DNA from: Eucommia ulmoides
Taxonomy: Eukaryota > Streptophyta > Magnoliopsida > Garryales > Eucommiaceae
Assembly: GCA_016647705.1 (NCBI GenBank)
Contig: CM028334.1
Span: 2,418,001-2,482,000, forward strand
Length of the DNA: 64,000 bases
Reading direction: 5' to 3'
Shown here: piece after piece, positions 31,901 through 45,565 of the stretch
Layout: the number at the start of each line of letters is the position of its first letter
Numbering within the stretch: position 1 is the first letter of the stretch
Notes under the pieces: generated by a model
Databases searched by the model: none
What the model was told of the DNA's origin: nothing
Seen by the model: the letters and a program-made list of their open reading frames with translations, nothing else
Made by a program: the position numbers and the translations under genes

Positions 31901-33714
31901 GCAGGAGAGACATCTAGTGGCGTATGAAAGTCGAAAATTAAATGACACTAAGAGGCGCTATACGTTCCAAGAGAAGAAAATGACCGCCATTGTTCACTGC
32001 CTACGAACTTGGAGACATTACCTCTTGAGGACTTACTTTGTTATCATGACCGACAATGTCACCACTAGCCATTTCCAAACATAGATGAAACTGAGTCCAA
32101 AGCAAGCACGGTGGCAGCATTTTCTTGCAGAATTTGACTACCGGCTGGAGTATAAACCCAGACGAGTGAATGTGGTAGCGAATGCCTTAAGTCGTAAGGC
32201 CGAACTAGCATCTATTAGTAGTCCCAAATGCCCATTGCTAGATCGCATCAAGGAGGGACTACAATATGATCCCCTAGCCAAGAGTCTTGTTAGCATGGCC
32301 AACGAAGGGAAGACGTGATGCTTTTGGCTAAATGATGATCTTCTGTACACGAAGGGGGACAAGCTCTATGTCCCTAAGTGGAAAAACCTTCAGAAGGAAT
32401 TAATGAAGGAAAGCCACGATTCGAAGTGGGCCGAACATCCCAACATGAGACGTACCATGGTGTTAATGGAGGATGCTTACTACTGGCCTTGTATGCGGGA
32501 TGACATAGAGGCCTACGTCAGGACTTGTCTTGTTTGTCAGCAAGACAAAGTGGAACAACAACACTCAGTAGGATTGTTAGAACTGCTACCCATACCGGAA
32601 CGAACATAGGAGACTGTCTCCATGGACTTCATATCGACGCTACTGAAATCAGAAGGCTATGGGAGCATCGTGGTAGTAGTCGATTGATTTAGCAAGTATG
32701 CCACTTTCATCCCTGCACCAGCCGACTGTACTGCAGATGAGACAACCCGACTATTTCTGAAAAATTTGGTGAATCTATAGGGAGTCCCTCAATATATTGT
32801 CAGTGATCGAGATCCTTGATTCATTGGCTGATTCTGGACAGAGTTGTTCAAACTCTAGAGACGGATTTGGATTTCTCAACAAGTTTTCATCCACAAACCG
32901 ATGGGCAGACATAGAGGATCAATGCCTTGTTGGAGCTATACTTACGGCACTACGTAAGTGCCAACCAAATGGATTGGGCCAAACTGCTCGACGTGGATTA
33001 ATTCTAGTACAATTTGCAAAAGAGCGAGGCGACTAATCAAAGCCCTTTTGAGATTGTTACGAGAAGGCAACTTTTGACGCTCAACGTCCTAGCAACAAGC
33101 TATGATGGGAAGAGTCCGGCAACGTACAAATTTGCTAAGACGTGAAACGAACAAACCGATATGGTTAGGGCATACCTAGATAAAACAGCCAAGAAAAAGA
33201 AGAAATAGGCGAACAAGTCTAGACGACTATTGGAGTTCAATGAAGGGGACTTGGTTTTTGTGAAACTTTTGCCACAACAATTAAAATATATGAGGAAAGT
33301 TCACAAGGGTCTTGTTCGGTGTTACGAGGTCCCGTTTTAGATGATAAAACATGTGGGGAAGGTCTCCTACAAACTTCTTTTCCCACCCAAGTAAAAGGTA
33401 CACCCTGTCTTCTACGTCAGTTTCTTAAAACCATATCATGAAGATACAGAAGAACCGAGACGCGGGGTATCAAAACGAGCGCCAACTGTGATAGTCACCT
33501 CTTTCGACAAAGATGTTGATTGTATACTAGCCGATCGGGTCATACGGAGGAGAGGTGTGCCAAATTACCACGAGTATTTGGTCAAGTGGAAGAACCTACC
33601 GGATTGTGAAGCGAGCTGGGAACATGAAGACCAGCTTTGGAAATTCGCGGATCACATCCAGAGGTTCAAAGATAAAGGCAACATGAGGGCGTCGCGAGAA
33701 TAGGTAGGGGACAA

Positions 33715-34343: not shown

Positions 34344-34709
34344 TACGTCATAATGACATTACCGAACAAGCAACTCTAACGGTGCCGTTTGGTTAAACGG
34401 AATGGGGTGGAAATGAAATCGCAATTCTATCCTCGATTTCAATTCCTTTGTTTGGTTATCCAGTGGAATTAAATTTTTAATTCCATTGGAATGAGAATGG
34501 ATAAAATTAGATTCTATATTTCATGGAGTGGAATTGAATTCCATACTTTATGGTAGTTTTTTTTTTTTTTTTTGTTACACCTAAAATACCTCACTTCATT
34601 TTGGCCTACAATTCTCACTTTGAAAACAAAAAATATGTTTCCATTTCTAAATAAAAATCAATATTTGAAAGAAAAAAAAATCTATTTATCCTCCTATAAA
34701 TATTGTCGG
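34344..34709. repeat. Duplicated spacer with half a Harbinger-type MITE
   Basis: A third copy of the spacer that follows copia-type LTRs elsewhere. The MITE half starts at 34380. It is cut short at CTCCTATAAATATTG by the MULE. No gene. Confidence 0.7.
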
Positions 34710-34866
34710 GTCTTTTACCATTTAAATCCATTTTAAATAAAAAAATACCGAAACGAACCTGATTTAAACTTATTTACCAAAAGAGCTCTACCTGGGGTTT
34801 GAATCCCCGGGTACTAAAACCCGGGTTCCAAAAAAATCCGTCGTATGAACACCGGGTATACGCATC

Positions 34867-34899
<33 letters not shown>

Positions 34900-35140
34900 C
34901 AGTATACTTGGGGATGTGAATGGAACCCGGGGATCACATCCCCGGGTCCTAACTAATAAAAAAAAAATTAAACTGGGAACGGGCCAAAATGTTTGGCCGG
35001 TTCCCCGAGGACAGCTGCTGCAATCTGCAGTGGCTGTCCACTGCTGATGGTCAAATGAAATGACCGTTCAGCAGTGAACGGTCATTTCATTGGACTGGTG
35101 TATTTTGGACCCGGGGATCGTATCCCCGGGTCCAAACTAT
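34710..35140. repeat. Left TIR of the MULE with hairpin-forming palindromes
   Basis: It contains GGACCCGGGGATCGTATCCC and its partner arm at about 35109-35135, a similar one at about 34908-34948, and a stem CAAATGAAATGACCGTTC/GAACGGTCATTTCATTGG at about 35052-35094. About 200 bp (34830-35050) have no counterpart in the right TIR. Confidence 0.75.
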
Positions 35141-37122
35141 TTAAATACCCCCCCTCTCAGTCATTTTTCTTTTACCGATTGTTTGTTCCTCCTGCCTTTG
35201 TTTTTTTTACCGATTGCTCCTGCTGCTTTGCTCCCCTTTGCCGACTGCCACCAAATTTGTTTCCTCTCTTCATAATTTCTTTCCTCTTCTTCACTAAGCC
35301 AGTAACAATTTTTTTTTTTACGGTAGTTGTTCATTAAAGATTGTTTACAACTTTACTTCAGAATTTCTTCCTCTTACTAAAAGTAAGTTTTTTTTTTTTT
35401 TAATTTGTTTTGTTTAATTTATTTATTAGTTTGATTTGATTAATATGTTTTGTAATTGTTTAATTATTTAATTTATTAGTTAGTTACTTTTGTTTAGATG
35501 TTAATTCAATTAATTTTTAAAAATATCATAAAAAATATTAGAATATAAATTAGTTAATTAATTAGTTTGGAGAGCACCTAGCTCAATCTATTTTGTAGCC
35601 GAAAATAGAAACAAGCCTTCTCTTACTATCTTAATCAGGAAAAAAACATGGGAGGAAAGGGCCTTCAAATTTCAAAATTCAACTATCCATCGACTTAATT
35701 TACAAAGATTTGGCCTGAAGATATTAAACATAAAAAAAACAAATAAAAAAAAAATAAAAAATAAAAAATAAAAAATTACTTGTTAACTAATAACTTCTCT
35801 TGGCCTGAAGATATTAAACGATTTATTAATCCTGAAATAATAGTACTATAAGAATACAATTATTACATCATTTTGGGGATATTGCACTTTATCCCCCTTA
35901 TACTATGATCCATTTTTATTTTAGCCCCTTGAATTTTGGACTTAAGTGTATACTTGTCATTACAAAATGAGTTAGAGCTAACAAGGTGTTATTAATTTGG
36001 TTTTCTTTTTGAAATTTGTTCTCGAAAATTTTTTGGAAGTTGTTTTTAAAAATTATGATGAGTTATTTGGTTTAGTTTGAAAAATAGATTATTTATTAAT
36101 AATAGTGTTAAAAAAAATGTAGTTAGTTGGAATATGCTGTTGAAAAAGTGAGATAATAATAATATTTGTTGGGTTAATTTGTGGTAGAAAAAAATTGTAG
36201 AAAAAATAAAAAATAAAGATGGTATTCGATTCGTGCTTTAATTAGGTATTAGATTAGATTTGCGAAATATTAATTGACTAATGTAGCTCTAAGAGTTTTC
36301 TTTGAAATAAACACATATATTGATCTGTAGATGAAATGACATTTTCTCTTCGCCGTAAATTGCGAAATTTTTATAGTTGAAATCTCCATGTATTAGAAGA
36401 GTTGAAGTACGAGAATTTGACTAGTCCATTCAAATAAACACATTTGTTGATCTGTAGATGAAATGACATTTCCTCTTGACCTTATAATTGCGAAATTTTT
36501 ATAGTTAAAATTTGAGTAAAAGTACGAGAATTTGACTAGTCCATTAAACCGACCAATTACAATAGAAGATATTTTATAGACTTTCACTTCCCTTTCACAC
36601 CGTTATATGTAAAAAAACTTCACGTGAAACTTCTGTTGTTTGAAAAGATTAAAAATTTAGGTGTGAAAAAATTGGAAGTGTTGAATTCTAGTTTATAAAA
36701 ATTTAAGCGTTCAATTTGTTAAATAGTAAATTTATTAATTATTTCATATTTAAAAATTTCTATCTCATTCATTTTGATCCTGCACAAATTTCTATTTCTA
36801 AAAAAAAAATTCTTTATAATATATTTTCTCGAATTTGTTAGTTAATTTAATTTTTTAATATGTTTGGAAAAATTATTTTATTATTTTTAAATAAATATAT
36901 TTTAATTTTTTAAAGTTAAAGTTAAAATAATTATTAAATAAATTAAAGATAAGTAAAATGTTAAAGATTGAAAATAAATTATAAAAAATGTTAACTTTAC
37001 GTGGAATATAAAAAATGAACACTATAAACAATTGGTATTTGAACATACTTTTGTGATTGAGTTTTGTTTGATGATAATATATTCTTATTTTGTTTTGGCT
37101 TGTGAAATGATAACCGTTTGAA
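35141..37122. other. MULE 5' non-coding region
   Basis: AT-rich, with pyrimidine-rich leader-like sequence at 35150-35340. A segment around GTACGAGAATTTGACTAGTCC occurs twice (36408 and 36520), a small internal duplication. No gene. Confidence 0.5.
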
Positions 37123-39920
37123 ATGGATCACGTTCGGTTGTTATTATATTGGGGTGGTAGAATATTGGAAGGTACCGAGTTCGAGGCTTCTTACAGTACA
37201 TCATTTGTAAAATTTTTGGTTGTTCGTAGGGGAACAACCTTGAATGAATTAATTGAGATGCTAAAACCGTGTGTTTTTTAGGATGGGGCTGCTGGAATTT
37301 TGAAATTAAAGTGTAGGATGCCGATGGCTCTTTTGGAGAGGAATTTTAAATATACTTTGTTTTCTATTGGGGACGACTTAGCATTAAACCAAATGCTTGA
37401 GTTACCTCTTTGCATATTACCGCTTCTTGCTGTTGAGATGTATGTAGAAATAGAAGGAGTATTTGATCATAGTTTGAATTTTTCCCTCAAACTAGTCATT
37501 TTACTCACTTAATGACTCAGAGTTTTACTCCGAACAGTACCCAATCGGACCCTATATTTTTTTGCTATAATATTACACCGTTCCACCCCCATACATTCCA
37601 GAACAATACCATTCCCACAATATTCCCATATCGCACCCCCAATTAGTTGAGTCTAATTTCACCGTCCCACCCCTACATTCCAGAATAAGAGCATTCACAT
37701 ACTATAATTGATCGTGATCATGGCACCAGTTCCGTTATTCCACATCACCATTTTTCGCTAAGTAGTTCACTGCAATACAACACAAGTAATTATGGTGGTG
37801 ACTTTGATATAGTTGATAGTCACGGTGTGACAGAAGAAGAGTTAGATACGAATGTTGTGTTGGAGCCTGAGGAGTACGATGGGAATGGGGACGAAGATCT
37901 AGATGTTGGGCCTAGCGGGCAAGGGAGTCACAATCAGCAATTTGAGTTGGACAAGATTATTCCATTTTTCAATAACTTGGAGTGGGGTGATGATGATGAC
38001 ATGGTGAAATACAAGCCGAAGTTGAGAAAACATTTTCGGACACCGGAGATGGATAAATTTCGTATCGGTATTGTCTTTAAAAGACAAGAAACATCTCCAA
38101 AATGCCGTAAAATATTACCACATCATGAAGAACAAAGAGTATGGTGTGGTGCGAACGAAACCACATCTTTGAGTGGTTAAATGCTTGCATGGATGCGGTT
38201 GGAGGTTGCGGGAGATTATGAAAAAAGTCACGATATGTTTCAGATTACGCAGTATGAGGTCCAACACACATGTTTTTATAATCATACGGACTTAGATCAT
38301 AAAAATATGGATGCTGGTATGATTTCGAACTTAATACTTGGACAAGTTGAACATGATCCAGAATTAAAGATGAGTGTTATCGTGGCTTACGTGAAAGATT
38401 CTTAGGGATTCTAGGTCTCCTATCGAAAAGCTTGGTTGGCTAGATCTAAGGACATCGAGACCTTGTTCGGAGATTGGGACAAATCATATCAGAAGTTGCC
38501 GAAGTTTATGGTCGTATTGCAGTATTACAATCCGGGTACGGTTATCGAGTAGAGCACTGTTCCGACTGATATGCCTAGCTACATGAGGTTTGACATAGTG
38601 TTTTGGGCATTCAAACCTTTAGTTGATGGATGGCGTTATTGTCGACCTGTCGTCACGATTGACGGCACCCACTTGTACGGTAAATATGAGGAAAAAATCT
38701 TTTGGCTTTCACTGTCGTACCGAAGGAGGACTACCGCTGCTGGCGATGATTTATCTACATGCTTAAGCGCCATATTATCAAAGATCGTCCTTAGGTGACA
38801 TTGATATCTGACAAACACACGGCCATTCTTAGTGCGGTTGACAGCATGTGGCTTAATCAATCGAACGAGCCCGTCCGATATCACCGATTTTGTTTGCGGC
38901 ACCTTTGCAGCAATTTCAACAAAATTGCTAAAAATCAGCAACTAAAAGATCTTGCTTAGAATGCGGGTGCTGCGAACCAAATTCAAAAATACAATGCTAT
39001 CATGGAAAAGATAAAACAAATTGATGTTGAGGCACATAAGTGGTTGAATAGTATTGTAGCCTACAAATGGACCAGGGCACACGACGATGGCAAGCGTTGG
39101 GGAGTGATGGCGACCAATTACGCTGAGGTATTTAACAACTGCTTGAAGGGTGCAAGAAACGTTCCAATTACTACATTCGTGAAAATTACTTTCTATAGGA
39201 TGGTTAAATACTTCGATGTTGGTCGACAAGAAGCTCTAAAGGGATCAACTAACGGTGACATATACGTTAAACACGTTGTTGAAAAAATACAGAAATCCCA
39301 AGCTTAGTCCAAAACATACGAGATTCAGATATTTGATCGGTGCATTATTAGTTATTATTTCCTTTATTTCAGATTACATATAATTGTTGGCACACATAAT
39401 TTAATTAAATATTTTTTTTTAGAGCGAATGCAATCTATCATGTGAAAACTAGAAAGACTCTTACTGGGGGTCTGATCGTTCACTAAGTCACATTAGGGGA
39501 TAACGTTGATTGCACATGTGGGAAGTATAAAATATGGCGATATCTGTACTCCCATATGCTTACGGCCCCCCGAGTATAGTGGCAGTGATGCGTTCTAGTT
39601 TATTGTTGCTGAGTATACAGTAGTGAATCAATCGATGGCGTGAGAGTCATCTTTTCGATTGATTATTCACGAGGACTACTCGCCACAAACAAATTTGCTC
39701 AACCTAATTTCGGACCATAATAGACTTCAAGTGTTACAGCGTGGTCGACCAACATCCACTCGCATTCATAACGAGATGGATCAGTCGTGAAGAACAATGA
39801 CAAATCGATGTGGTTTGTGTTCCCAGACTGGACATGATAGACGGACGTGTCCATCCCGAACCCCGTCATACACCCAATTGATCTTGTCGCACACATTTAT
39901 TTGTAATAGATGCTATATTT
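37123..39920 (+). pseudogene. MULE transposase (mudrA-type), degraded
   Basis: The frame opens MDHVRLLLYWGGRI at 37123, the usual N-terminal motif of plant MULE transposases. An acidic linker follows (37827-37990, EEELDTNVVLEPEEYDG), then the MuDR N-terminal domain (FRIGIVFK, about 38055). The DDE domain keeps FWAFKPLVDGWRYCRPVVTI with the first Asp at 38661 and SDKHTAILSAV with the second Asp near 38810. The SWIM finger near 39507-39560 has CTCGKYKIWRYLYSH, where the expected Cys before Ser-His is Tyr. A CCHC knuckle CGLCSQTGHDRRTC ends it (39800-39860). It is broken by several stops and frameshifts. Role when intact: cut-and-paste transposition in the nucleus. Confidence 0.85.
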
Positions 39921-39929
39921 TGTTTGTTA

Positions 39930-42252
39930 CTAATAAATTAGATGCAAGTTTTGGGGGAAACAATTTCAGTTATGTCTCACCTTGGCCCGGAAGATACTTC
40001 AGTTCTCCACTTGCAAGCCCAACACAGGTCTGTATTAGTTTGGGCAGGACAGGTAAATATTTAAGCTATTACATTAATTTTATCATTTTAGTTTTTAAAT
40101 TTTTTTATGTTATTGATTTTGTCTTAATTAATGTTTTAGGATAATGGTGCGCTAGACTGTGTTGGATTTGATGTAGGGCGATGGAGAGAAGACACCCCTG
40201 CTCGAGTCGTAGAGCTGATAGAATTGGCCAAATTGTACGGTCCTTATAGGTTGTGGCCGAAGCGATTTGATAGGTGTCTGATAACCGCGTTAGTAGAGAG
40301 ATGGCATCTAGAGACGCACACTTTCCATCTACCCGTTAGGGAGATGACGATCACGCTATAGGACGCGGTTGTCTTGTTGGGGTTTCCCATGCACGGGTAA
40401 CCCGCTATCGTCTCTAATGACATGCGACTGCCAGAGAGTTGGCGGGGATTCTACTATGATCTCCTCAGCGTGGCATCGCCGGAGGGTGTGATAAGGAACG
40501 GTTGTTTGAAGCTTAATTGGCTAAAGGCAACATTCAACCAAGTTCTTGAAGATGCAGGCGGAGAGGCCATGCATTGCTACGTATGGGCATATTGCTTGAT
40601 TCTGCTTGGCACGATATTGCTGCCTGATAAATCGCAGAACATGGTCAAGCTTGCCTACCTCCCACTTCTCCGCGACTTGACACTTCTGGTCAAGTATAGT
40701 TGGGATAGTGCGATATTAGCGGTCCTGTACCGCGAGCTATGCAAGGCGGCGAAGGGCACAAGCGAATGTTGTCCCTATTCCTGATTATAATCAAGCATAC
40801 GAAGAGTTGGCTTTGGAGAACTTTTTGTTTCTAGCGGTTCCGAGGGGTGCCTGGTAAGTAATTAGTATTTTATTTTTTATTTCATTATCATATAATGGAA
40901 ATTGTCATCCATATTTAGTTAAATTTATGGTTATTTTATTGGTATACAGATGGACCTTTGAATTCCATTTGGAAAACTGACCGATGCATGTTCTGATCGT
41001 CTATCGCGATCAGTTAGATCAATTGCAGAATGACGAGGTTAGTTATTTATTTACGTCAATTTTTTTATTTTATTTTTTTATTTACATATATTTTGGATAG
41101 GTCGTTTGGATGCCCTATCTCCTGCCGGGTTTGCCTCCATATACTAGAGATGGGGAAGAAATATAGATGACAGAGCTGCCCTTCATCTGCTACGACATTG
41201 TCGTGTATACGTATGCCCTGCGCGTGCTACGACAATTCGATTATCAGTAACCGATTCCTGAGCCATGTATTTGGGATCAGATATTGCACAACACTAGTCG
41301 GCGAGGACACTACGGTGCTAACTGGACTGTGATACACCGCTAGCATATAGCTGCGTGGAACAGTCGACAAGCACCAGATATGGGAAGTTTGGTGCGGGGG
41401 ATAGGGGTTGACCATGAATACATGAACTGGTATTGGAGAATTACACGAAGGTTCTTGGTCAACCAGGAGTACCAACCCGAGTTTAGTTATCTAGCTACAG
41501 GGGGATGAGCAAGGTTAGAGGTATGATCACATTGACTATACTATCTACTTACTTATTTATGAGTTTGATTATCTTATTATTATTCTTGGATTAACTTAAC
41601 GATCATATGTGTTTTGTAGGATCCGGAAGTATCGCAGCTGATGCGCTTGAGTTTTCTTTTTCTGCGGATGCATACTCTAGACTCATACCATGAGATGGTG
41701 AGGGCTGTCTACACCGCTACCACGGGGGCGGTGTATCGTCGGGTACCGCGCCATATGCCAGAACAAGTTCATCCATCTCCTCAGCCTTCTCCCCAGCCAT
41801 AGACTACTGACGGCCACCATCCAAGTAGTGTGGGTGATGCCGGACCTTCTACATCGTACAACATGGGTGCCGATACCGGACTATCTAGTATGTGCGGCAT
41901 GGGTGAGGATGTTGGGCCGTCCGACGTGTATCAGATGCATGACCCTTATTTGCATTACGCATCGCAACTAAGTACATGACCATCATCCTCATTCGTCACT
42001 CCGGAGATAGACGAAATTATTTCAACTTCAGGCATCATTCTTTCGGTGGCATTTGTTGAACCCACAAGATTACAAAGACAAGTGTCACTAGTGCCGTGGT
42101 TCGGGGACGACGTCGATGTCACCCCAGGGATTATGCAATAGTCATTCATGAACTTTGGACAAGTTACACAAGTTCATGAGGAGGCTGATGAACCTCCTAT
42201 TGCTCAACGACGAGGGCAGATGAACATCCGACGTAGGGGTTGCGGTACATAG
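39930..42252 (+). pseudogene. Plant mobile domain (PMD, MAIN-like) gene carried by the MULE
   Basis: Exons encode ALDCVGFDVGRW, ELAKLYGPYRLW, ALVERWHLETHTFHLPVREM, LLGFPMHG and later WIDYRQ-equivalent and HREYM-like stretches (DHEYMNWYWRITRRF), typical of PMD/MAIN-like proteins. Likely introns are 40052-40140, 40855-40949, 41037-41100 and 41521-41620, each GT...AG. The tail is Pro/Ser-rich and ends QMNIRRRGCGT before a stop near 42252. In-frame stops occur (for example in the TITL.DAVVLLGF stretch), so it is probably not translated whole. Known PMD proteins MAIN and MAIL1 act in the nucleus in transcription and silencing, and PMD genes occur in transposons; a role in countering silencing for the MULE is inference. 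Confidence 0.8.
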
Positions 42253-42870
42253 TTAGTTATGTAGTTGATAGTTTAGCTATAGGAATGTAAATACATTTTT
42301 TTTGTAAATATATAGTTATATAGGAATGTATATAGTTAATAAATACATTTTTTTGTAACGTTAGTAGATTTAAAAAGTTATTGATCTACTGTATATATTG
42401 CTTTGCAAATGGATACAGAATTTGAATGGGAGATCGAGTAATGTGTCAAACAATTCAAAAAGATTCTTAACAAGCATATAAAATATATTTTTTACTCCAT
42501 CTTCGAGACTTGTATATACATATTTATTCATCTTGATTTTGAAAGATTATTTTTCGAAGGTAGACATGATATAGAAATTAAAGGCGAAACAACTTAACAT
42601 AATATTAAAGGTGAAACAACTTAACATAATTATAAACATTATATTGAAATTAAACGTGTTAACAAGTATAATTAATTATAAAAAAAATATTACATAAATT
42701 AGAAACATGTTTAATGGTGTTTATTACAAAACTCATAACAAAGACAATACATAAGAAATACAGTCTATAACATCACGAAAATAGTGACAAAAAAAACACA
42801 CACTTAAAAAAACAGTTGAACTACAAAAAAATATTTATTCTTCATTGGACATGTACCCCTCAAACAAATA
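42253..42870. other. MULE non-coding sequence between convergent ORFs
   Basis: AT-rich, with a short repeat of AAAGGCGAAACAACTTAACATAA at about 42579 and 42606. It lies between the 3' ends of the PMD gene and the antisense ORF and may hold terminators for both. No gene. Confidence 0.5.
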
Positions 42871-43341
42871 TTAATTGTTATTTATGACGTTACGGTATTC
42901 ACTTGGAGAGAGTGCTCTGTTGCTTGCAACTACCATTTTATTGTCTAGTTGTAGTAGATAATATCGATTCTTGCGCAACAACCTTCGATTATTCTCCAAG
43001 CAATTTCGTGTAATTGCATTTTCGATCTTGATTGTGTCATCAATTATACATCGTTTAGGCATCTGAAGACTTCAACGATGTGGAACTGGTGCATTAAGAT
43101 CTCACAAATGAGATACAAGATTGTTAGACTCATTCACCCTGTATTCCCTTTCTTGACGTAGACCGACACGATACTCTATCGGGTTGGTGTCTTGATCACT
43201 CCAGTAGTCATCATAATATGGTTGTAGAACCCAACATCTTTAGTAATCCCACAGTCCAAGCCAACCCCAAACACCGTTCGAGTTCTCTTCACTTGAAAAA
43301 CCCAATGAACTTTCTTCACTTGAATTAATATTTGAAGACAT
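42871..43341 (-). pseudogene. Antisense passenger ORF b in the MULE, unknown family
   Basis: A single minus-strand frame of 157 codons from ATG at 43341 to a stop at 42871, interrupted by three stops but with no frame change. The N terminus is Ser/Glu-rich (MSSNINSSEESSLGFSSEEN), the middle aromatic and acidic (YYDDYWSDQDTNPIEYR), the C terminus basic then polar (NNRRLLRKNRYYLLQLDNK, ending SPSEYRNVINNN). The preserved frame argues it was once coding. I do not recognise the family. Confidence 0.5.
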
Positions 43342-43615
43342 GATGAAAATTATAGTCTGAATAATTTCTTTACAAATATTATACTGCACAAAAAATTAGA
43401 ATTTTTTAAAACATAATTATTGAAAAATGATGTTTTAGAACTTATATACACGAGGCTTAACTAAAAAAAAAAAAAAAAACCAATACTACCTATCAATTGA
43501 AAGAGAGAAAATCAGTTGTTTGGTAAAAGTAACGTTATTATAATTTAACGTAGAAACGATACATTAGACTTCAAAGAAAATAATAGTTAAACTGCAATTC
43601 ACCAACGTGAAAACA

Positions 43616-44020
43616 TTAAACATTACTTTCATCATCAGACATTTCAATGTTTGACTGATATTGAGGTTTCATTGGGCATCTTATGTAAGTATGCACTTCG
43701 GCAACCAAATCTTGTTCGAGACGCTCACGTGCCGTCGTTTCAAGCTCGTGTTGAAAAATTCAAATTTGCATTCGGTTATTTTCTTCGCGGTAGTGATGCA
43801 ACGCCATCTGAAGGTTATGCGGCGTGTCTATTGGCATTATTCTAGCCAATTGATGCACTATTTGAATATTATATTGTTTGCATCCGTCCACCATAACCTC
43901 TGATTGATTGACATGATAAGTGTATTCCTCATATATTCTTACAACCCACTGTGAATAGTAACGACATCTTGGATTTAAAGAGTATGAGAATTCACCTTTT
44001 AAAAGCCAGTGACGTTCCAT
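43616..44020 (-). pseudogene. Antisense passenger ORF a in the MULE, unknown family
   Basis: Starts MERHWLLKGEFSYSLNPRCR at 44020 and runs 134 codons to 43616 with one internal TGA (43760-43762). It is rich in Tyr, Glu and His, has YYSQWVVRIYEEYTYHVNQ and ends with the acidic tail EMSDDESNV. Upstream sequence on the minus strand is AT-rich and near the right TIR, which could supply a promoter. No known domain recognised. It may be a separate gene or the upstream exon of the same gene as ORF b. Confidence 0.5.
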
Positions 44021-44560
44021 TGAACGATACAAATCTCTCAACGTTTATATTTTTCATTCCTTATAATTTTAATAATAAAATAAATTATTGACAGAATAAA
44101 AAAAAAAAATTAAAAAAATAATAAAATAATTTTTTCAAACAAATTAAAAAAATAAATTAACTAACAACTAAATTAAAAAATTAAACTAATTAACTAACCA
44201 ACTATCTAACAAATTAAACTAACTAACTATCTAACAAATTGAATAACTAAACTACCAAATTAAATTAAATGACTACTTAACTAACAAAAGTAACTAACTA
44301 AAAAATTAAATAATTAAACAAATACAAAACATACTAATTAAACCAAACTAATAAATAAGTTAAACAAAACAAACAAAAATCAATTTACCTTTAACAGGAG
44401 GAAGAAAATTTGAAGTGAAGTAAAAATATCTTGATGAATAACTCCCGTAAGAAAAAGAGAAATAAGGAAATGTATTCGGAGGAGGAAAGAAAAAACCTAA
44501 TATTCGGGAGAAGGAAAGAAAAAACGCTAAGGAAAATTTAGCTCACAATAAAAAAAAACT
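44021..44560. other. MULE right-hand non-coding region
   Basis: AT-rich, dominated by degenerate AACTAACTAAC/AATTAAA repeats (44150-44350). It may be the leader of the antisense ORFs. No gene. Confidence 0.5.
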
Positions 44561-44792
44561 TACAAGAAGGTCGAGTATTTAAATATTTTAGACCCGGGGA
44601 TACGATCCCCGGGTTCGAAATACACCAGTCAAATGAAATAATCGTTCATTTCGTTTGACCGTCAGCAGTGAACCCCGGGTTCTAGTACCCGGGGATCTAA
44701 ACTCTGGGTAGAGCTCTTTTGGTAAATAAGTTTAAATCAGGTTAGTTTCAGTACTTTTTATTTATTTAAAATGGATTTAAATGGTAAAAGAC
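44561..44792. repeat. Right TIR of the MULE
   Basis: Inverted counterpart of 34710-34830 and 35040-35150, including the palindrome GACCCGGGGATACGATCCCC with its closing arm at about 44591-44616 and CCCCGGGTTCTAGTACCCGG near 44673. Confidence 0.8.
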
Positions 44793-45565
44793 TCATACTT
44801 TGAAGTAAAAATATTTTTTATTTTTTATTTTGAAGTAAAAATATTTTGGAATGAAAGGTAATAAAAAAATAGGACTATTCCAAAATATTTTTACTTCCAT
44901 TCCAAAATATTTTTACTTCAAAAATCCAAAGTGAAATTCAACTATTACTTTATATCTAATTTATTTATTTATTTTTACTTTATTATTTATCACTTTTTTA
45001 TTATTAATAAACTAAAAATATTTTTTTAGTTTCAATTGAATTCAAGTAAAAATTCAATTTGGTCGACAGGATGTCCTATTCGGTTGACAGGTTATATCAA
45101 AACATGCAATTTAAATCTACTATTTTCAACGGTCGACTGATTTGTCAAGTCGGTCAACCGAGTGGATAGTTTTCAGAACTTTTTACCTCACTGTTTTAAC
45201 CGGTTAAACGTTTGACTTATTCGATCGACCGTTTGACCTCACTTTTAAATTAAAATTACAACAATTAAAGAAATTATAATTAACAAACAAATAAAGTTTT
45301 CTTTATAAAAAAACGAAATTAAAAAAAAAAAGTGTAAAAACTAAAAAACAAAAAAAAAATGTTCAAAAAGAAATAATGGTCAAACTTTAGGTGTATAAAG
45401 TGTCACAAATGCTTGGATTTTTTTCAAAAACCAAGTTCATTTTTCATTTTCGTTCTCTCTCTCTCTCTCTCCTCTCTCTTTCCTCTTTCCTTTTTCTCTC
45501 TCTCTCTCTTGGCAAAAAAGGGACTTAGTCTCGGCGTTCAACTTGGCAAAAAAGGGACTACTAAC
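44793..45565. mobile_element. Partial copy of a foldback-type element
   Basis: Matches the centre and right arm of the 60351-62512 foldback element (AAGTAAAAATATTTT inverted units, then GGTCGAC/GGTTGAC-rich sequence, then CTCTCTCT and GGCAAAAAAGGGAC). Truncated on both sides. No gene; the 71-codon frame at 45413 is low complexity. Confidence 0.6.

Follow-up and report, generated by a model that had tools for sequence, protein, structure and literature searches.

The window, the 64,000-nucleotide stretch of Eucommia ulmoides DNA analysed here, contains at positions 34708-44794 one MULE, very probably the decayed remnant of an autonomous-type element of the MuDR type that carried a separate plant mobile domain (PMD) gene and a pair of further genes, A and B, in addition to its mudrA transposase. 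The window copy is dead, with all four genes broken. PMD-bearing MULEs are an already published kind of element; new are the conserved A/B pair, PMD as a separate gene in a relative that we term T1, the inverted gene layout of T1, and relatives that have no A/B. The biochemical roles discussed below are those that we infer for the products. Among the elements of this genome are recently amplified ones whose PMD frame is open, and the T1 layout sets PMD apart from the transposase. Relatives that have A/B and others that do not, together with a paralogous pair that is apparently under selection, make it testable which genes serve movement and which serve the avoidance of silencing.

Structure of the window element

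The ends of the element were set by comparison with four relatives, T1 to T4. The outer part of the left TIR (34708..34830, + strand) reads GGGTCTTTTACC... and carries the sub-terminal motif AACTTATTTAC at 34767, and the right TIR (44283..44794, - strand) reads GAGTCTTTTACC... and carries the same motif on the minus strand at 44722-44732. Inverted-repeat comparison within the window pairs 34710-34745 with 44757-44792 at 97% and 34740-34830 with 44669-44759 at 88%. Inner blocks of the left TIR (35075..35494, + strand) pair with 44549-44648 and 44283-44421, the identities being 83% for 35075-35174/44549-44648 and 92% for 35398-35494/44283-44379. In both TIRs of the window element, of T1 and of T4, AACTTATTTAC occurs some 58-60 bp inward of an end resembling GAGTTSTTTACC; in T2 and T3 this was found in a single TIR. 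Because this spacing of AACTTATTTAC and GAGTTSTTTACC is common to the relatives, we move each end of the element 2 bp outward from the first-pass annotation, to about 34708 and 44794. Comparison of both flanks of the window copy revealed no intact target-site duplication.

The mudrA transposase pseudogene (37123..39888, + strand), with its first ATG assigned by comparison with T1 and its domains from relatives, comprises a core at 38010-39334 and an exon with SWIM and zinc-knuckle sequences at about 39420-39880. The PMD pseudogene follows on the same strand (39972..42252); its domain was likewise identified from relatives, and it ends GCGT-stop at 42252. Read by eye, its exons lie at 39972-40052 (with its own start, MSHLGPEDTSVLHLQ...), 40140-40853, 40950-41037, and 41101 onward, with splice sites predicted by comparison with T1 and T2. 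On the minus strand are the pseudogenes of A (42835..43341; 168 codons with 4 in-frame stops, open in T1 and T2) and B (43616..44050; about 144 codons with 2 in-frame stops, open in many other copies). Relative to T2, the mudrA core of the window has 8 stops and 4 frameshifting gaps, and its PMD gene has 5 stops over exons 2 and 4, with a piece of exon 2 unmatched. Pfam domains were scored on relatives and sister copies in place of the broken window frames. The first-pass annotation had described a single element with TIRs, mudrA, a same-strand multi-exon PMD gene and two opposite-strand ORFs near its right end, and both the TIR pairing and the recurrence of this arrangement in relatives bear it out. 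Its two antisense "unknown ORFs" are real; as genes, however, they are broken by stops in this copy, and they are paralogues of each other.

Two other features adjoin the element. Just to its right, 44828-44923 holds a 30-bp inverted repeat, 97% complementary with the arms 36 bp apart, resembling a MITE-like hairpin. Just to its left (33395-33703) is a frame reading KVHPVFYVSFLKPYHED..., which we take to resemble the end of a Ty3/gypsy polyprotein.

Related elements in the genome

Relatives were sought in one genome (946.7 Mb in 391 contigs). With the whole element as DNA query, 18 further places were scored, at about 76-88% identity over the main pieces. Among the matches listed at these places, as read from the listing, PMD was present at 17 of the 18, the A/B block at 16 and mudrA at 14; fully open mudrA and PMD frames were found in none of the stretches read for open frames, several of which covered their place only in part. 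Protein searches, in which the best 93 of 5171 candidate places were scored for the T1 mudrA core, the best 150 of 1485 for gene A and the best 150 of 1534 for gene B, revealed a far larger and younger family with many open frames and near-identical copies.

All four frames are open in T1 (C5:60432656-60444916; 12,261 bp), where the order is PMD(+), A(-), B(-), mudrA(-). Its TIRs, of at least 1.8 kb, are arrays of ~190-bp tandem repeats, and it has a target duplication of 10 bp, AGTAAAACTA. Compared with the window and T2, the PMD-A-B block of T1 is inverted relative to mudrA, and on either side of the block lie the arms of a 204-bp inverted repeat (93% identity) containing mudrA 3'-end sequence. 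The T1 transposase matches PF10551 (E 3.6e-17), PF03108 (E 1.3e-7) and PF04434 (E 4.3e-7), and the MULE, DBD_Tnp_Mut, SWIM and PMD domains of T1 exceed the curated cut-offs. One sister copy of the window family matches PF03108 (E 5.1e-9), and another matches PF10551 at E 0.012, below the cut-off. Several T1 mudrA cores on different contigs are 99-100% identical, with a 757-aa open frame; judging by these near-identical sister copies, the T1 type has amplified recently.

The gene order of the window, mudrA(+), PMD(+), A(-), B(-), recurs in T2 (around C2:40.63 Mb). PMD, A and B are open in this copy and mudrA has a single stop near its N-terminus; 735-aa mudrA frames with no stop occur at two other T2-type places. 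Neither a left end nor a left TIR was found in the T2 copy read. Between PMD and A, T2 carries repeat units (L042:7990-8838) that are 98% alike and spaced at about 187 bp, and these, like the ~190-bp arrays in the TIRs of T1, are possible binding or regulatory arrays.

T3 (C8:3.17 Mb) and T4 (C7:45202817-45209960), each represented by one copy, have mudrA, with its frame interrupted, and PMD on one strand, and no credible match to A or B was found in either of the stretches read. In T4 the TIRs measure about 350 bp, and the target duplication, CATCCCTTTC, is 10 bp long. T3 shows a single end motif, on the right, and a left TIR was not found in the copy read. Because the T3 and T4 copies have mudrA and PMD with no A/B, PMD looks like a core gene of these elements and A/B like accessory genes. 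A frame just past the right end motif of T3 (L044:7315-7740), which presumably resembles a MATE transporter, is not counted as T3 cargo because it lies outside that motif. Terminal inverted repeats are thus present in the window, T1 and T4, and the 10-bp duplications at T1 and T4 are of Mutator type (8-11 bp). By binding the TIR ends, the mudrA protein would mobilise the element and so generate these duplications.

At 73 of the 93 best T1-query mudrA places A and/or B lay within 12 kb, on the mudrA strand at 64 and on the opposite strand at 9, where chance would give about 0.004 per place and list; at the other 20, A/B were not among the matches listed. PMD, of which the best 117 places were considered, was near at least 23 of the 93 (20 opposite, 3 on the same strand). 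A and B shared a strand in 83/83 pairs, and A was opposite PMD in 34/34. A T2-type set was drawn from 93 mudrA places of another search; it comprises the 42 whose identity to T2 is 83% or higher and omits the remaining 51, which reach 80% or less. A and/or B were near 36 of these 42, on the strand opposite mudrA in every case, and not among the matches listed at 6; PMD lay on the mudrA strand in all 12 places where it was listed. The transposase, PMD and antisense genes, whose joint occurrence in relatives the first-pass annotation had proposed as a check, therefore recur together in tens of places and in two layouts. Nor do relatives consistently lack PMD, as that annotation had allowed they might, since T1-T4 (one copy each) all carry it. 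A chance grouping of these genes by TIRs belonging to nested or adjacent elements could explain why no target duplication was found around the window copy and why pairing of its TIR arms is confined to separate blocks. The recurrence of the same gene set in two layouts argues against such an accident, and T1, with four genes between TIRs and a 10-bp duplication, refutes it for the family, so that we give it a negligible probability.

Comparison with described elements

PMD-bearing plant MULEs were reportedly described by Babu in 2006. In maize MuDR, mudrA and mudrB face each other from the two TIRs. The layout of the window and T2 is similar, with the transposase and further genes facing each other from both TIRs, but here there are two paralogues, A and B, besides PMD, and we liken them to mudrB by layout alone.

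According to the available sections of Ikeda 2017 (PMC5418596), PMD was first described with a rice MULE, MULEs of grasses and Amborella have taken up PMD-C in fused form, and an anti-silencing role, which the first-pass annotation also inferred, has been proposed for MULE PMD. The available sections of Dupeyron 2019 (PMC6446971) report PMD in many plant MULE groups (42 and 45-50), in sense or often antisense, and one unnamed "unknown ORF" in group 42. Because PMD is already known from many plant MULE groups, as the sections of both papers attest, PMD as the mark of a distinct lineage is not supported in the form that the first-pass annotation gave; it may be the A/B pair that sets the present lineage apart. 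The elements described here resemble those published in combining a MULE transposase with PMD, in sense or antisense and apparently of the PMD-C kind. Unlike the fusions of Ikeda 2017, PMD here has its own start, and in T1 it lies opposite mudrA; an A/B pair is not mentioned in the sections available.

VANDAL elements (vanA, vanB, vanC) also combine a transposase with extra genes and have tandem repeats in non-coding parts. They differ in having no TIRs or short degenerate ones, according to the same sections of Dupeyron 2019, and in that DUF1985, which VANC proteins carry, is below threshold here. VANC targets evolve as tandem repeats form in non-coding sequence (Hosaka 2017, PMC5735166; this and the DUF1985 statement are from the available sections). 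KI-MULE/Kaonashi elements, as far as the accessible accounts go, resemble the present ones as MULEs with an extra conserved gene, in their case with an ULP1 domain; Pfam searches detected no ULP1 domain in the proteins scanned here. Related literature, also available in part, includes Nicolau 2020 (PMC7156037), a 2021 Cells review (PMC8616336), a 2022 orchid paper (PMC9289625), a 2026 gene-capture review (PMC13317346), a 2019 meeting report (PMC6419827) and a 2008 grapevine paper (PMC2528002). Among the open-licence papers listed by the literature searches, no description of A/B was recognised.

Selection on the element genes

Between T1 and T2, the mudrA core gave a dN/dS of 0.15; for PMD the ratio came to 0.23 in exon 2 and 0.27 in exon 4, and genes A and B yielded 0.16 and 0.22, respectively. 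The full comparison set consisted of T1, T2, T3 and some sister copies. Ratios involving copies from decayed elements were higher, reaching 0.37 (A), 0.39 (PMD) and 0.57 (B), and PMD exon 2 gave 0.21-0.39 among T1, T2, T3 and one window-family copy. By these ratios, A and B are conserved as proteins and under selection. When variable sites were counted by codon position across the decayed copies, third positions were not clearly in excess; dN/dS was used instead.

These values bear on the very improbable view that PMD and A/B are host gene pieces carried passively, in the style of Pack-MULEs. T1-T2 ratios of 0.15-0.27, open frames in many copies and the presence of PMD in T1-T4 all count against passive carriage, even though MULEs often take up host sequence (available sections of PMC6446971) and a MAIL-like PMD adjoins the MULE PMDs in the tree described below.

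Genes A and B

A and B are, by sequence comparison, diverged tandem paralogues: hhalign aligned them at E 3e-8, and their blastp score was 123, where none of 1000 shuffles exceeded 59. Neither matched Pfam, and searches of NCBIfam and PDB sequences with both gave nothing credible. Derivation of A or B from mudrA or PMD was considered and rejected, as there was no similarity at E<1 to the core parts of T2. Single-sequence structure prediction from the window readings gave mean pLDDT values of 33.0 (A) and 46.8 (B), too poor for use.

We tentatively suggest that A and B form a helper pair for transposition or expression. An alternative, which we regard as possible but somewhat doubtful, makes them a mudrB-like helper pair that integration needs and that has no silencing role. 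Their low dN/dS and their position are consistent with this: in the window they sit at the right TIR and are directed towards mudrA and PMD, at the 36 T2-type places with A and/or B they are always opposite mudrA, and mudrB is apparently required for integration (available sections of Dupeyron 2019, PMC6446971). In T1, however, A/B share the strand of mudrA, and neither gene is found in the T3 and T4 copies read; because T4, with no A/B, has a clean target duplication, A/B would be dispensable for insertion in general.

The A/B block may also have a history of its own. T1-T2 dS was 0.30 for A and 0.24 for B, well below the 0.76 of mudrA and the 0.93 and 0.82 of the PMD exons. Measured to the window family, dS for T1 and T2 respectively was 0.23 and 0.23 in A, 0.20 and 0.21 in B, and 0.61 and 0.39 in mudrA; PMD distances to that family are unequal for T1 and T2, as for mudrA. 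The dS values suggest that the A/B block was exchanged between element lineages. Non-coding identities between T1 and T2 are mixed: the spacer separating A from B reaches 82%, and the 3' flank of A, at 74%, is close to the introns (75%). The low dS of A/B in all comparisons may reflect constraint. It seems unlikely, though worth stating, that A and B are a previously undescribed pair of small paralogous proteins that form a complex with PMD for counter-silencing or for transposition, and that T1 acquired their genes from a diverged PMD-MULE lineage like T2 or the window element, with inversion of PMD-A-B producing the T1 layout.

The PMD gene

The PMD domain (PF10536) was matched at E 1.7e-50 in a window-family copy, 4.9e-60 in T1 and 1.1e-60 in T2, and the gene lies between the TIRs in T1 and T4. 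In T1, T2 and the window alike, the first exon of PMD supplies a start codon of its own. Because the T1 gene is on the strand opposite mudrA, PMD is a gene of its own at least in T1. A PMD-transposase fusion is ruled out by the opposite strand and the separate start codon, a verdict limited to T1, as mudrA and PMD share one strand in the window and T2. In a 12-row tree, with no Arabidopsis rows, two PMD-B-like rows stood apart (100/100) from the MULE PMDs, a MAIL-like row and one further row, and inner nodes had bootstrap values of 82-97; PMD-B, PMD-C and MAIL-like are the clade names that we presume to apply to these rows. The element PMD is apparently of the PMD-C kind. The C-termini of PMD in T1, T2, T3 and T4 have in common a basic tail like RRxRRNxRxRxCGT-stop, a possible nuclear signal.

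MAIN/MAIL1, host kin of the PMD proteins encoded by transposable elements, are needed for transposon silencing. Our leading, though tentative, reading is that the element PMD protein would work inside the nucleus and influence the expression or the chromatin of its own element, either by imitating the host MAIN/MAIL1 pathway or by diverting it. A rival proposal of rather uncertain standing is that PMD is a VANC-like anti-silencing factor that binds to motifs repeated in non-coding parts of its own element and relieves their silencing. The role of MAIN/MAIL1 in silencing and the suggestion made for MULE PMD in the available part of Ikeda 2017 (PMC5418596) are in keeping with such a factor, as are the dN/dS of 0.21-0.39 in PMD exon 2 and the presence of PMD in T4 too, and the tandem repeats of T1 (~190 bp) and T2 (~187 bp) recall, by analogy, VANC targets. 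Against it, the VANC domain DUF1985 reached only E 0.003-0.008 in the proteins scanned (16.6-17.9 bits against a cut-off of 35.1), and a motif search of the non-coding parts of the window, T1, T2 and T4 recovered the sub-terminal TIR motif and an A-rich word absent from T4 and nothing else, so that the TIR motif is the sole repeat motif common to all four.

Nine listed PMD matches, six of them with uninterrupted frames of 784-909 aa, lie at C4:2507473-2604771, likely a tandem array, and we take them to be PMD-B-like host genes. Their dN/dS is 0.39-1.21 within two groups of near copies and 0.34-0.37 between the two groups, the latter being the sole, weak host comparison for the element PMD.
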